A DNA stretch of 54,500 nt from assembly GCA_030696085.1 (NCBI GenBank), contig JAUYNL010000042.1, positions 1 to 54,500 of the forward strand, in the 5' to 3' direction. The stretch is from Luteolibacter sp. Its GTDB lineage: Bacteria > Verrucomicrobiota > Verrucomicrobiia > Verrucomicrobiales > Akkermansiaceae. Below are positions 7,822 through 25,152 of the stretch, piece after piece (position 1 is the first letter of the stretch; each line of letters opens with the position of its first letter). Under the pieces are notes generated by a model that was not told the origin of the DNA, made no database searches, and saw only the letters and a list, made by a program, of their open reading frames with translations. Made by a program: the position numbers and the translations under genes.

Positions 7822-10398
7822 TCATTGCTTTTGGAAGACGATTTGCCCGTGTTCCGTCTCGGCCAGAATGAGGTCGCCCTCGGTGAATTTTCCATCAAGG
7901 ACATCGAGGCTGAGGGGATCGAGCAGGAGGTGCTGGATGGCACGTTTCAGAGGGCGGGCTCCATAGACGGGATCATAACCCCGGTTGCCGATGAATTCCT
8001 TGGCGTTTTCGCTGAGGGCGAGGGCGAGGCCCTGCTTGGCGAGCCGCTTGCGGACGCGATCCAACTGGAGATCGACGATGGTGGCGATTTCCTCGCGCTT
8101 GAGGCGGTCAAAGATGATGATTTCATCGATGCGATTGAGGAACTCGGGGCGGAAGTGGCCGCGGAGCGCCTCGGTGACCTTGGCTTCGCGTTGTTCGGCG
8201 TTTTCCTCGTGGAGGATGAACTGCGAGCCGATGTTGGATGTTAGAATGATGACGGTGTTGCGGAAATCCACCGTGCGGCCCTGGCCATCGGTGATGCGTC
8301 CGTCGTCTAACACTTGCAACAGCACGTTGAAGACATCGTGGTGGGCTTTTTCGATCTCATCGAAAAGCACGACGCAATATGGCTTTCGGCGCACGGTTTC
8401 CGATAGCTGCCCGCCCTCTTCATAACCGACATATCCTGGAGGCGCGCCGATCAGCCGGGCGACGCTGTGTTTCTCCATGTATTCGGACATGTCGATGCGG
8501 ATCATCGCGCCTTCGTCATCGAAGAGGAATTCGGCGAGGGCTTTTGATAATTCGGTCTTGCCGACGCCGGTGGGGCCGAGGAAGAGGAAGGAACCGATCG
8601 GGCGGTTCTCATCCTGCAAGCCGGCGCGCGCACGGCGCACGGCGTTTGCAACGGCGGTGATGGCTTTTTTCTGGCCCACGACGCGCGCACCGAGGCGCTC
8701 CTCCATGTGCACGAGTTTTTGTTTTTCGCCTTCCTGGAGGCGATTCACGGGAATACCGGTCCATGCGGAAACCACGCGGGCGATGTCCTCCTCGGTGACT
8801 TCCTCCTTGAGGATGGCCCCGTTCCTCTGAAGCACGGAGAGCTGGTTCTTGGCGGTTTCGAGCGTCTTGTGGGCATCCGGCAGATCTCCGTAGGTAATCT
8901 GCGATGCGCGTGTTAGATCGCCGATGCGCTGGGCGCGTTCGGTCTCACCCTTGAGCGTTTCGATCTTCTCCTGCGCGGAGCGAACCTGATCGATGACGGC
9001 CTTTTCGTTGCGCCACCGGGCCATGAGGCCGGAGGATTTCTCGCGCAGGTTGGCTTGCTCCTCCTTCACTTTTTCGAGCCGCGCGGCGGACGCTTTGTCG
9101 GTTTCCTTTTCGAGGGCTTTTTTCTCCATTTCGAGCTGGAGGATCTGGCGTTCGAGCACGTCAATCTCGGTGGGCATGGAGTCGAGTTCGATTTTGAGGC
9201 GGGAGGCGGCTTCATCGATGAGATCGACGGCCTTGTCCGGCAGGAATCGGTCTGATATGTATCTGTCAGAAAGATAAGCTGCGGCAACCAGCGCTCCATC
9301 CTGGATGCGCACGCCGTGGTGGACTTCGTAGCGTTCCTTCAAGCCGCGCAGGATGGCGACGGTATCCTCGACGGACGGTTCGCCGACCATGACGGGTTGG
9401 AAGCGCCGTTCGAGCGCGGCGTCCTTTTCGATGTGCTTGCGGTATTCATCGAGGGTGGTGGCGCCGATGGTGTGGAGTTCGCCACGGGCGAGCTGGGGTT
9501 TGAGGAGATTGGAGGCATCCACCGCGCCCTCGCTGGCTCCGGCTCCGACGATGGTGTGGAGTTCGTCAATGAAGAGTATGATCTGGCCCTGCGCATCGGT
9601 GACTTCCTTGAGAAAAGCCTTGAGGCGATCTTCAAACTCGCCGCGGTATTTTGCGCCGGCGATCATGCCGCCGAGGTCCATGGTGATGACGCGCTTGTTT
9701 TTCATCGAATCCGGCACGTCGCCGGAAACGATGCGGCGGGCAAGCCCCTCTACAATGGCGGTCTTGCCAACCCCGGGTTCGCCAATGAGTACCGGGTTGT
9801 TCTTGGTGCGGCGGGAAAGGACTTGGAGCACGCGGCGGATCTCGTGGTCGCGGCCTATGACCGGATCGATCTTCCCTTCCCTTGCGCGGGCGGTCAGATC
9901 AGTGCCGTATTTTTCGAGGGTTTGGTATTTTCCCTCGGGATTTTCATCGGTCACTTTCTGCGAGCCGCGAACGCTTTTGATCGCCTCGCGGGCTTTTTTT
10001 TCATCGAGACCGGCCTCGTTGAGGAGTTTTCCGGCGGGAGAGTCTCCCTTGAGTGCGCCGAGGATGAAATGCTCGACGCTGAGGTAGTCATCGCCGAGCG
10101 ATTCGCGCGCCTGATCCGCGGAATCGAGAGTGGACCGGAGGCCGACGCTGATCTGAGGCTGGGTGGAGGCTCCCTGGACACTGGGCTCGCGGGCGAGCGC
10201 GGAGGCGGTGGCTGCCTTCAGCTGGCCAAGGTCCACTCCTGCTTTTTGCAGGATGGGCACGGCGATGCCGCCTTCCTGTTGAAGCAGTGCGAGCAGGACG
10301 TGTGCGCTCTTGAGTTCGGCGTGGGAGGATTTTGAGGCGATCCCCTGTGCGGTATGCAGCGCCTCCTGGAGTTTCCGGGTGATTTTTTCGAGTCCCAT
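7822..10398 (-). CDS. clpB: ATP-dependent chaperone ClpB
   Basis: This 858-residue disaggregase works with DnaK to rescue aggregated proteins in the cytoplasm. Domain order is complete: Clp N-domain repeats (1 to about 145); first AAA+ module with Walker A GEPGVGKT near 205 and Walker B ILFIDELH; the long coiled-coil middle domain (about 405-525, rich in Glu/Lys); second AAA+ module with GPTGVGKT near 605 and [11 protein letters not shown]; and the C-terminal D2-small domain (NRIDEIIIF). The length is normal. No CIRCE element or heat-shock promoter was seen in the 74-bp gap upstream. The TrhO-RluA fusion follows on the same strand. Confidence 0.97.
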
Positions 10399-22235: not shown

Positions 22236-22271
22236 CACCCTCCCATCCACCCTCCCATCCACCCTCCATTC
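22236..22271 (+). repeat. 12-bp tandem repeat (CACCCTCCCATC), about 3 copies
   Basis: Two exact copies of the 12-mer (22236-22247, 22248-22259) and a third with one base deleted (22260-22271) open the repeat region. It merges into a C/T-rich tract. A related version recurs before the second palindromic unit, near 22686-22706. Confidence 0.8.
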
Positions 22272-22308
22272 CCTCCCCTTCCCGGCGTTTCTTCCGCCGC
22301 GCATCCCC

Positions 22309-22418
22309 AAGGAGGGGCGATGCATGATCGCCCATGCGGATGCTTGGACGATGGAATGCGCGAAGCTCTTTTCATCGTCGCACCATCCGCATCGGCGGAC
22401 GCGTTCCGCCGCTCCTTG
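22309..22418 (+). repeat. REP-like unit A
   Basis: This is the first unit of the dispersed palindromic array, about 109 bp. Hairpin 1 is GGGCGAT-gcatg-ATCGCCC and hairpin 2 is CGGCGGA-cgcgt-TCCGCCG near the 3' end. It is preceded by a pyrimidine tract and an about 25-bp GCGTTTCTTCCGCCGCGCAT leader shared with unit B. About 325 bp of unrelated sequence (22419-22741) separates it from unit B, and I saw no gene in that stretch. Confidence 0.85.
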
Positions 22419-22741
22419 CCCAGCACTTCGCGCCCCCTTCCGCCACGCCGCGTAGGCGCATTCGTGAGAATGCGGCGTATGGATGGATCTTGGGAATGAG
22501 AAGGGTCGGCGCGGCGGTTCGTAGGCAGGGCGGGCACTCGGATTGCGGTGGAGACGGGCGGCTGAAGCCGCCGGCCCGCGTCATGGCGACTTTCGATAGG
22601 GTCAGTCGATAGTCCCGAATAACAAGCATTCGCTCGTCGATAGGACTAACAAGCAGTCGCATGTGAATGGTCACCATCCGCTATTTCCCATCCACCCACC
22701 ATTCCCTCCCCTTCCCGGCGTTTCTTCCGCCGCGCATCCGC

Positions 22742-22850
22742 AAGGAGAGGCGATGCATGATCGCCTAGCGGATGCTTGGTCGATGGAATGCGCGAAGCTC
22801 TTTTCATCGTCGTTCCATCCACATCGGCGGACACGTTCCGCCGCTCCTTG
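22742..22850 (+). repeat. REP-like unit B
   Basis: The unit runs from AAGGAGAGGCGATGC to CCGCCGCTCCTTG. Hairpin 1 is AGGCGAT-gcatg-ATCGCCT and hairpin 2 is CGGCGGA-cacgt-TCCGCCG. A linker of about 25 bp containing the perfect palindrome CTTGCGCAAG (22869-22878) joins it to unit C. The unit start-to-start distance to C is 134 bp. Confidence 0.9.
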
Positions 22851-22875
22851 GGGGGAGGTCCGCAGACGCTTGCGC

Positions 22876-22984
22876 AAGGAGAGGCGATGCATGATCGCCT
22901 TGCGGATGGATGGACAATGGGAAGCGCGAAGCTCTTTTCATCGTCGCTCCATCCACATCGGCGGACACGTTCCGCCGCTCCTTG
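22876..22984 (+). repeat. REP-like unit C
   Basis: This is nearly identical to unit B, with the same two hairpins and linker. The central part differs at a few bases. Start-to-start distance to D is 133 bp. Confidence 0.9.
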
Positions 22985-23008
22985 GGGGAGGTCCGCAGAC
23001 GCTTGCGC

Positions 23009-23117
23009 AAGGAGAGGCGATGCATGATCGCCTTGCGGATGGATGGACCATGGGAAGCGCGAAGCTCTCTTCATTGGCTTTCCATCCTCATCGGCGGACA
23101 CGTTCCGCCGCTCCTTG
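23009..23117 (+). repeat. REP-like unit D
   Basis: Same layout as B and C. The middle segment (CTCTCTTCATTGGCTTTCC) has diverged, while both hairpin stems are intact. Start-to-start distance to E is 137 bp because the linker is slightly longer. Confidence 0.9.
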
Positions 23118-23145
23118 GGTGGGGAGACTCCGCAGACGCTTGCGC

Positions 23146-23254
23146 AAGGAGAGGCGATGCATGATCGCCTTGCGGATGCTTGGCCGATGGCATGCGCGAT
23201 GCTCTTTTCATCGTCGCTCCATCCGCATCGGCGGACGCGTTCCGCCGCTCCTTG
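23146..23254 (+). repeat. REP-like unit E with partial copy
   Basis: This is the last full unit before the transposase gene. Hairpin 2 has the cgcgt loop, as in unit A. A truncated extra copy of the hairpin-2 right half (GGACACGTTCCGCCGCC) follows at about 23258-23275, just upstream of the RAYT gene. Confidence 0.88.
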
Positions 23255-23312
23255 GGAGGACACGTTCCGCCGCCCCCTTGACTCCGAGCGTGTGACCCGT
23301 CAGCGTCGGATC

Positions 23313-23969
23313 ATGAATTCCGATTCCTCCCATCCTCCACTGCGTTTTCTCAGCGAGTGGACGGAGATCCGGAAATCGAGGAATCACCTGCCTCATTGGG
23401 ATGCCGGGCGAATCGCCTGTTTCATCACGTTCCGACTGGCCGATTCCCTCCCTGCGGATCTTCTATCCGAATGGCGGGCTGAACGCGACGCATGGCTGGC
23501 GCACCACCCGCAACCATGGCCCCCTGAAACGGAAGCGGCATACCACAAGCGCTTTTCCACCCGCATCGATCAGGCGCTGGATGCGGGACATGGATCGTGC
23601 CTTCTGGGCATCATGGAAAACGCGGCTTTCGTTTCAGACACGCTCTCCCGCCGGAATGCGCTGGATTACCTGCTCCACTCGTGGGTCATCATGCCAAACC
23701 ATGTGCATGTGCTGGTTTCTCCCTTTCCGGAAAAGCCGCTGTCCGGATTGGTAGCCGGATGGAAACGCTTCAGCGCCACGCGGATCCACAAGGAGTCTGG
23801 CGCGACGGGTTCCCTTTGGCAGAAGGATTACTTCGACCGCCTGATCCGGGATTGGGAACACTTTCTCAATGTGGCGAGATACATCCGGAGAAATCCGGTA
23901 AAGGCCGGGCTGATAGAGGGGTGTTTCCTGCTCTATGCGGCTCCATGGGTTCAACGATTGCTGTCATGA
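23313..23969 (+). CDS. REP-associated tyrosine transposase (RAYT, Y1/HUH family)
   Basis: This 218-residue single-strand-DNA transposase belongs to the TnpA-REP group. The HUH metal motif is MPNHVHVLV (127-135) with His130 and His132. The catalytic-type tyrosine is Tyr173 in WQKDYFDRLIRD, and the helix YIRRNPVKAGL (190-200) is the normal family tail. RAYTs nick and move short palindromic REP elements. This gene is embedded in a palindromic array, with units A-E upstream and F downstream, which strongly supports the pairing. ATG 23313 was chosen because the upstream open frame only translates repeats. The protein looks intact. Confidence 0.9.
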   Translation: MNSDSSHPPLRFLSEWTEIRKSRNHLPHWDAGRIACFITFRLADSLPADLLSEWRAERDAWLAHHPQPWPPETEAAYHKRFSTRIDQALDAGHGSCLLGIMENAAFVSDTLSRRNALDYLLHSWVIMPNHVHVLVSPFPEKPLSGLVAGWKRFSATRIHKESGATGSLWQKDYFDRLIRDWEHFLNVARYIRRNPVKAGLIEGCFLLYAAPWVQRLLS

Positions 23970-23989
23970 CCAAAGCTCTCCTCATCAAC

Positions 23990-24082
23990 ACTCCATCCGC
24001 ATCGGCGGACACGTTCCGCCGCTCCTTGGGGGGGCGGTCCGCAGACGCTTGCGCAAGGAGATGCGATGCATGATCGCACATG
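23990..24082 (+). repeat. REP-like unit F (right flank of the RAYT gene)
   Basis: Here the order is hairpin 2 (CGGCGGA-cacgt-TCCGCCG), linker with CTTGCGCAAG, then hairpin 1 in the variant form TGCGAT-gcatg-ATCGCA (24062-24078). It is in direct orientation with units A-E. This is what is expected if the array continues across the RAYT gene. The outermost stem pair is T-A here, against G-C elsewhere. Confidence 0.88.
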
Positions 24083-24221
24083 CGGATGCTTTTCGATTCA
24101 TCCGACCACGCTCACATCGATGCGCTCTGCGCTGTGTTGGCTCGACACGAAAATGGCGATGTCGTCGGTGTCGGCTACTTGGTGGACATGGAACGGGGGT
24201 GTGGTAGGTCGTGTGCAAACC

Positions 24222-25152
24222 ATGACTCAAGCCCATTTTCCCAAAGCGATTCCGCGCCTGCTGTTGTTTGGCGGTTGGTTGATTTCAGGCAGTTTGGCGG
24301 TTGCGGGGGAGCCGTTGGTGACGAATGTGCGGGCGTTCCAGCAGGAAGGCACCAAGCGGGTTTTGATTGATTATGACTTGAGCGGAAACACCGGGCCGGC
24401 GTGGGTGTCGGTGGTGGGATCGGGCGAACTCCGGAATCGTGCTGGAGAATTACACGCTGCCAGTGGGTGCGCAGGCGATCACCTTCCGCTATCAGTTCAC
24501 CGGCGCGGTCGACGGGGACTACCTCGTGGTGTCCTTCGGTGGTCATCCGCCCGTCGGCTACGGCGTGGATAACGCGGCCAGCGAGAGCGGGGAAATCACC
24601 GCCGTGCTGCCGGTGGAACACCTCGCCGGACAACAGGGTGATCTGGTTTTCCGCGTGATGAGCCGTGGCAATCCGAACGCGGTGGCCGCTCTCAAGGGCA
24701 TCACTCTCGGCACCGTGGAAGATCCGGATCTCGACGGTCTCACCAACTCCCAGGAAGCAATCCACGGCACCAATCCGTTGCTGGCAGATAGCGATGGCGA
24801 CGGTCTCACCGATCCACAGGAAATCAGCTCCAGCCTCACCGGTCCGCTCGTGGGGGATAGCGATGGCGATGGCTCGAATGACGGTGCGGAAGTAGCGGCC
24901 GGCACCAATCCGCTCGATGGCTCGTCGCGGTTCGCCGTGGCATCCCCGGTGAAAGCGGGTGGCGATTTCACCATCACCTGGTTCTCCCGACCGGGGCGGA
25001 TCTACCGCGTCATCCGGGCCGCCGAGCCGACATTTGTTAGTTATGTCGTCGTGGTTTCCGGAATCGCCGCCGCGCCGCCACAACAATCGTTTGTGGATAG
25101 CGGAGCAGGCAGCGCCGTCCGAATGTTCTATCGGGTAGAGCTGGAGCCGTGA
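24222..25152 (+). pseudogene. Secreted thrombospondin type 3 repeat protein, frameshifted
   Basis: The N-terminal part (from ATG 24222) has a signal peptide (PRLLLFGGWLISGSLAVAG) and a VTNVRAFQQEGTKRVLIDYDLSG segment typical of secreted Verrucomicrobia proteins. Near 24420-24430 the frame changes by one base. The rest continues in another frame as VLENYTLPVGAQAITFRYQF and then calcium-binding TSP3-type repeats: DPDLDGLTNSQEA, DSDGDGLTDPQEI, DSDGDGSNDGAEV. The C-terminal domain is beta-rich. The second part alone could start at GTG 24439, but would then lack a signal peptide. Either the gene is broken or there is a sequence error. It lies next to the REP array. Confidence 0.65.

Follow-up and report, generated by a model that had tools for sequence, protein, structure and literature searches.

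The systems closest to the locus described here are those of Pseudomonas fluorescens SBW25, Escherichia coli, and Opitutus terrae. In P. fluorescens SBW25, the unit is an inverted doublet of REPs (a REPIN) showing compensatory changes, and near-identical REPINs form tandem clusters together with their flanks next to the RAYT genes (PMC3116915); the heads of these REPs are GTGG or GTAG (PMC2817692). The REPtron of E. coli comprises rayT and the Y and Z2 REPs, two REP types occurring in inverted pairs adjoining the RAYT gene (PMC6006769, PMC2817692), with a GTAG head and bulged stems (PMC8266576). The GTAG REP families of O. terrae form dimers and include insertions within genes (PMC3733652). 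GTAG is the usual tetranucleotide at the foot of the hairpin (PMC3733652, PMC2817692, PMC8266576), and the variants GYAG, GYRG, GTRG, and GTMG have been listed (PMC3733652). The tag of O. terrae is GTAG, or mostly GTGG in the case of family GTAG-20, and a GGAG class is not among the families described in the available text of that study (PMC3733652). O. terrae belongs to the same phylum as the present organism and has already been reported to be rich in REPs (PMC3733652), which corrects the sequence-only reading of the DNA, in which this phylum was taken for one where such elements are not well described.

The window (the whole stretch of 54,500 nucleotides analyzed) lies on contig C47 of a Luteolibacter genome of 3.77 Mb (G000; 110 contigs, 96% complete). 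The system it carries is of a known kind, a REPtron whose REPINs form a BIME-type array, and is built like those of Pseudomonas and E. coli. It differs from that of SBW25 in its GGAG head, the presence of two different hairpins per unit, and the far smaller number of copies found, and from that of E. coli in its GGAG head and perfect stems; the solved protein nearest to its RAYT is that of E. coli.

At positions 22308–24088, five complete units of 110–111 bp (A–E), a split sixth unit (F), and an intact RAYT gene were identified (Table 1), which matches the five full units and one rearranged unit initially described around this gene. The start-to-start distances from A to E are 433, 134, 133, and 137 bp, so that the spacing of 133–137 bp initially given is correct for B–E, A starting 433 bp before B. 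The gene is located between E, which is followed by a degenerate half REP, and F, which is a unit split around the usual linker. Since the right half of F follows the RAYT stop codon, the gene occupies the place of the left half of a unit. The linkers are common to B–E, that between C and D resembling the stretches preceding C, E, and the left half of F, while A and B are preceded by a stretch similar in both. The palindrome CTTGCGCAAG, which had been attributed to the linkers in general, is present before C, D, E, and the left half of F, its last four bases being the start of the head, and is absent before A and B. Several REP pairs are therefore arranged head to tail with linkers in common (repeat families D1–D3), as in a BIME. 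A protein with TSP3-type repeats (PF18884) is encoded shortly past the array, at positions 24439–25149.

Table 1. Features of the array and of the RAYT gene (positions in the window).
Feature	Position	Strand	Basis and remarks
REPIN unit A, t1-t2 heterodimer, 111 bp	22308..22418	+	Covariance model, 120 bits
REPIN unit B, 110 bp	22741..22850	+	Covariance model, 123 bits
REPIN unit C, 110 bp	22875..22984	+	Repeat comparison, covariance model
Linker C-D, forming CTTGCGCAAG together with the next head	22985..23007	.	Repeat family D3
REPIN unit D, 110 bp	23008..23117	+	Repeat comparison, covariance model
REPIN unit E, 110 bp	23145..23254	+	Repeat comparison, covariance model
Additional degenerate half REP, directly 5' of the RAYT gene	23255..23280	-	Repeat family D4, 91%
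RAYT (TnpAREP-like HUH/Y1 transposase), 218 aa	23313..23969	+	PF01797, E 1.8e-8; NF047646; 4er8; 218 codons 23313-23966, stop to 23969
HUH motif MPNHVH, residues 127-132	23691..23708	+	M127, P128, N129, H130, and H132 invariant in 40/40 aligned proteins
Catalytic tyrosine Y190	23880..23882	+	Invariant in 40/40 aligned proteins
Unit F, right half of REPIN, after the RAYT stop	23973..24028	+	Repeats, BLAST, covariance model
Unit F, left REP of the next unit, array end	24054..24088	+	Repeats, BLAST, covariance model

Each unit is an inverted pair of REPs of about 26 nt with the head CAAGGAG outermost at both ends, each REP consisting of this 7-nt head and a hairpin whose stem has 7 bp and whose loop has 5 nt. 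What had been taken for a unit longer than a classic REP is a REPIN of about 110 bp, that is, an inverted doublet. The two hairpins of the window units differ, t1 (GGCGATgcatgATCGCC) being on the left and t2 (GGCGGAacgtgTCCGCC) on the right; a third type, t3 (GGCGAAacgcgTTCGCC), occurs elsewhere in the genome, where it is partnered with t2. In all 12 units conforming to the strict pattern, t2 is associated with t1 or t3, and the stems of the three types are compensatory. The presence of two hairpins per unit, which the sequence-only reading had proposed, is borne out both by folding, which gave z values of -2.8 to -5.8 for four whole units, and by the alignment of 20 units. Four helices were recognized in the latter, since two inner stems, in addition to the hairpins, connect the halves of the unit. 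In this alignment, 96.0% of the cells were paired and eight pairs had changed on both sides (37 such cells), double changes being present in each of the four helices. The paired-cell values, the double-change values, and the covariation score were matched by none of 500 shuffles; a fifth covariation measure, that of further pair types, was matched by 83 of the 500 and is not exceptional. When the partners were slid by 1–3 columns, at most eight double-change cells were obtained, as compared with 37 in the unshifted alignment. The covariation thus supports the base pairing. The head, which lies outside the stems, is also conserved among the aligned units, and the 17 units identified with a looser pattern were all 107–112 bp long. 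The unit therefore has the features of a REPIN: an inverted REP doublet of nearly fixed length, self-folding, with covarying helices.

The RAYT sequence matched PF01797 with 34.9 bits (cut-off 23), while with NF047646 (REP-associated tyrosine transposase) it scored 72.4 bits, which is under the curated cut-off of 80, a model threshold rather than a biological feature. The residues of the HUH motif and the catalytic tyrosine expected of a Y1 (IS200-like) HUH nuclease domain were found to be invariant in the alignment, from which one of the 41 proteins initially included (L100) was left out because of stop codons. The only solved relative detected by sequence at E <= 0.01 was 4er8, the TnpAREP of E. 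coli, reportedly described by Messing et al. in 2012. The AlphaFold2 model of the RAYT (mean pLDDT 87.4) also retrieved 4er8 first in a fold search (E 7.2e-7, TM 0.44 by query length, rmsd 6.2). Among the genomes of the genus searched, the closest relative of the RAYT is in G014. Comparison with L095 (71% identical) gave a dN/dS of 0.15 with strongly diverged silent sites (dS 1.48), and values of 0.10–0.15 were obtained in three other pairs of free-standing RAYTs. The window RAYT is intact and, judging from these ratios, under purifying selection.

A BLAST search with one unit (E <= 1e-4) gave 22 matches in the genome, 7 in the window and 15 outside it, and the pattern of the right REP gave 30 matches versus 1 for the reversed control. 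With the covariance model (E <= 2.4e-5, both strands counted once), seven places were found in the window, namely A–E and the two halves of F, and 22 elsewhere in the genome, three more places having E between 0.01 and 0.1. Three of the 22 outside places (C2, C17, and C64:58580) are contig ends carrying one and the same unit, which leaves at least 20 distinct places; these repeats probably break the assembly at these ends. The genome-wide count suggested in the sequence-only reading therefore shows that the unit is not restricted to the window. With its HUH/Y1 protein, E. coli TnpAREP as the nearest solved fold, REPs on the flanks of the gene, and copies dispersed in the genome, the locus has the RAYT-in-REP/BIME layout initially recognized, with a head differing from GTAG.

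In the genus sample (61 genomes, including that under study), the unit was detected at E <= 0.001 in at least 47 genomes; the counts per genome are lower bounds, 63 candidates having been kept in the first look. Of the two sets making up the sample, one had RAYT matches (E <= 0.001) in 30 of its 31 genomes and the other in 29 of its 30. The units had been expected to be absent from genomes lacking a RAYT, and this is the case in G007 and G041 (88% and 90% complete), the only two of the 61 genomes without a RAYT match; however, units are present in G047 (58 unit rows) and G052 (21 unit rows), where the RAYT occurs only as a fragment, with a stop codon and at a contig edge, respectively, and in G023 (two unit rows), where the RAYT match contains a stop codon. 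In addition, 12 genomes with a RAYT match carry none of this unit type (G003, G010, G016, G021, G027, G030, G033, G039, G042, G045, G048, and G049). These cases count against a strict link between units and RAYTs. REPINs likewise occur, in smaller numbers, in E. coli genomes that have no RAYT gene (PMC8049555).

The persistence of units in genomes with RAYT fragments only would be in line with the idea that the units are inert, belonging to an old REPIN family amplified by replication slippage, and that the RAYT has another cellular role and no longer moves them. The linkers common to B–E are likewise what slippage is expected to produce, and 22 places outside the window are few in comparison with the usual >100 REP copies per genome (PMC2817692). 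Against inert remains stand a RAYT under purifying selection whose catalytic residues are intact, the paired changes that keep the stems, and a length held at 107–112 bp in 17 units, and we regard this explanation as rather unlikely.

A scan for reading frames at 19 unit sites, performed without gene annotation, yielded two in-frame insertions in identified genes, besides other long open frames. The first (C95:46478, L008) is in a GT2 glycosyltransferase gene (PF00535), where the unit encodes 37 residues between VAAQMAAS and FTLEHLVIDGGS. The insert is absent in six of the 11 orthologue loci compared (L177, L178, L181, L184, L185, and L186), whereas this site holds short inserts, resembling REP remains by eye, in L176 (81% identical) and L183 and a longer insert of different sequence in L182; the junction in L179 and L180 was unreadable by script. 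The sequence-only reading had suggested looking for empty sites in closely related strains; the precision of those seen here is limited, since the insert-free orthologues are only 73–79% identical in protein and six extra bases are left over beside the unit in the comparison made by eye. A GT2 paralogue (C95:59965, L007) carries a 107-bp unit at the matching place and has a broken frame. The second in-frame insertion (C4:12491, L049) separates the acylphosphatase domain from the zinc-finger domains in hypF.

Some long frames of putative genes end within a unit (C95:42242 and C67:3383, for example), and five of 17 dispersed units (L011, L012, L014, L018, and L048) are located inside a longer inverted repeat, an arrangement which is rarer at control positions (p <= 0.014 in both controls, these being uncorrected per-site values over 17 tests). 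In L014, GGGTGCAGGACAAAAAAGT is present on either side, and A/T runs occur at some of the five sites. A search for this outer inverted repeat as a separate repeat gave 15 matches versus 10 for the control, which does not support a family of its own. These ends and outer repeats, along with the stability of the hairpins, are the features that would be in favor of hairpins acting mainly on RNA, as transcription terminators or mRNA stabilizers at gene ends. A role of this kind is improbable, because an identified gene is read in frame through the unit at two of the 19 sites, the units form a tandem array at a transposase gene, and the conserved head lies outside the stems, where it is needless for termination. 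That the RAYT gene itself moves, as an IS200/IS605 insertion sequence with MITEs, the flanking hairpins being its ends, is very improbable despite the Y1 transposase and the sister RAYTs present at many gene sites in the genus, since this gene, instead of occurring in multiple copies, showed no second copy in its own genome (the next best match is 45% identical) and its score with NF033573 (IS200) was 24.7 against a cut-off of 55.

The array, the covariation, the dispersal, the in-frame inserts (with GT2 orthologues devoid of them), the invariant catalytic residues, the dN/dS values, the 4er8 fold, and the GGAG-flanked relatives described below lead us to conclude with considerable confidence that the window carries a free-standing REPtron, consisting of a RAYT gene and cognate REPINs which local amplification has turned into a BIME-like array. 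The points counted against this conclusion are the limits of the GT2 empty site, the second copy with a broken frame in the GT2 paralogue, the units accompanied by RAYT fragments only, the 12 RAYT-carrying genomes without units, and the NF047646 score. In such a REPtron, once a strand becomes single-stranded, on the lagging-strand template, for example, the RAYT would recognize the GGAG foot and the hairpin on the single strand, cut with Y190 at a site predicted to be of CT type and selected by the guide AG, and join the REPIN at another location; the tandem array might result from repeated events or from template slippage at the RAYT gene. Selection of a CT cutting site by the guide AG has been proposed for GTAG systems (PMC8266576), and GGAG retains this AG.

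Classical REPs carry GTAG, or one of the variants listed above, at the foot, whereas the foot of the window REPs reads GGAG; by its tag, the system is therefore outside the GTAG superfamily. To count the tags, 140 RAYT loci were reduced to 127 unique ones, 108 of which had both flanks. Perfect hairpins of 6 bp or more were located in these flanks, and any tetranucleotide standing at the foot of one was counted if it did so on both sides of the gene. GGAG was found at 46 of the 108 loci, GTAG at 2, GTGG at 3, and CGTC at none; CGTC is also absent from the window units, which do not belong to the CGTC superfamily. The runners-up AGGA (29), AAGG (23), and GAGC (21) are shifted readings of the GGAG head, and five mononucleotide shuffles of the flanks gave no both-flank calls for any of these tags. 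As the loci were chosen by their similarity to the window RAYT, these numbers apply to its relatives rather than to RAYTs at large, and the tags are under-counted in the case of RAYTs nested in long frames, where the downstream flank was taken after the host stop codon. The count rests on perfect stems, a table tolerating one stem mismatch having blurred the heads. By eye, the foot is GGTG in L103 and L105, GATG in L157 and L164, and GTAG in L129.

In a tree built from the 121 RAYT proteins with 150 residues or more, clustering of the GGAG label was observed (23 changes versus 36.4 in shuffles); two subtrees, of 6 and 19 rows, contained the four strict GTAG/GTGG rows and no strict GGAG row. 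Related RAYTs are associated with GGAG-foot hairpins. GGAG was also found at loci labeled Lentisphaerota (L137), Armatimonadota (L156), and Chlorobiota (L153), which may be misbinned. The genome studied here harbors, in addition to the GGAG RAYT of C47, a RAYT at C94 with GTGG on both sides, the REP of which has five matches genome-wide at <= 3 mismatches, including its own two flanks, versus none for the control; the tag thus belongs to the system and not to the genome. A previous survey restricted its search of the hairpin foot to GTAG or GTGG, so that the GGAG class would escape it, although structures without GT[AG]G were found by hand in subclass 2.6 and class 3 (PMC6006769); a foot other than GTAG is therefore not new in itself.

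The residue aligned with E. coli H101 is H or Q in none of the 45 strict GGAG rows and in all four strict GTAG/GTGG rows. With one-sided tags, it is H or Q in 4 of 63 GGAG and 11 of 14 GTAG/GTGG rows; tags of this sort, however, can be due to chance, as they also turned up in shuffled loci (GGAG in 5 and GTAG/GTGG in 7 of 108). Only three independent pairs are available in the tree (median sign-test p 1), and R at this position also occurs in subclasses with GT[AG]G (PMC6006769). A link between the tag and this residue was accordingly not retained as a result and may be considered only as an idea.

Other RAYTs are nested in host genes. In the genome under study, the C94 RAYT (8152–8742; L273, C94:6000-11000) lies in frame inside ispG, its GTGG REPs included, and another (C71, 3579–4115; L274, C71:1000-7000) interrupts carB in frame and has the peptide QAGRLSS on either side. 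Together with 20 more stretches taken for their long frames, this makes 22 nested RAYTs, the hosts of which, assigned by Pfam/NCBIfam for nine stretches and by flank similarity for the others, are LeuS (9; L276–L283 and L286), MetH (5; L288, L289, and L292–L294), CarB (3), IspG (3), HsdR (1), and a DUF5107/TPR protein (1). The HUH motif and the tyrosine are kept in all 22. The insertion site in LeuS is constant, at about positions 360–370 of TIGR00396, inside the editing domain; the LeuS of the genome under study is intact and reads QVVQPTNDADWQNYADPGIAINSGFLDGLPT at this site.

LeuS and IspG were surveyed in 31 genomes which, having been picked largely for such RAYT hits, give no estimate of prevalence. 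A RAYT match was located between two LeuS parts on one contig in 14 of them, and across two contigs in G018; a single leuS was found in 28 of the 31, and no second leuS over the cut-off was present among the matches listed. Both parts of ispG were on one contig in 27 genomes, with a gap of 991–1948 nt in 14 and 403–631 nt in 13; all 14 long gaps contained a RAYT match, and that of G054 contained two. In the genome under study, no GcpE match was found besides the RAYT-interrupted ispG. In the ispG of G006 (L306), a short RAYT-like stub (YLPHWKLDGGTY) rejoins the host sequence in frame and another RAYT is present further on, which looks like an in-frame loss followed by a second insertion. One of the MetH cases (L292) is in a single-contig genome (G004), which speaks against misassembly.

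Purifying selection also seems to act on the nested RAYTs, the dN/dS values being 0.08–0.17 in four of eight pairs and the other four being saturated. The silent divergence of the RAYT was under that of the host in two of the eight pairs, L288/L292 (0.31 versus 0.96) and L280/L282 (0.025 versus 0.23, for the N part of the host only), and higher or saturated in the other six, being above that of the host in L289/L293 and L284/L285. The two pairs with lower divergence would fit RAYT transfer between hosts, which is possible on these values, or homing.

On balance, we are inclined to think that this class of RAYTs, of which the window has the free-standing form, uses GGAG rather than GTAG as the guide that it reads, and that in this genus this and neighboring clades also live as intein-like passengers, the RAYTs (with their REPs where these were looked at) lying in frame at fixed sites in leuS (in the editing domain) and ispG, two genes of which no second copy was seen, and in MetH and CarB; being catalytically intact and under purifying selection, they would be ones that the host cannot easily lose. 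What appears to be new here is the GGAG head class and the presence of relatives nested inside essential genes, no description of either having been found in the open-access literature. The GGAG class provides a natural contrast for studying the reading of the guide by RAYTs, and does so even inside a single genome, where GGAG (C47) and GTGG (C94) systems coexist. The RAYT relatives inside essential genes are the part most worth following up: through them, LeuRS and IspG carrying an inserted HUH domain become accessible to study, and they bear on the question why these transposases persist so long, to which nesting in essential genes would be a simple answer in the case of this genus.
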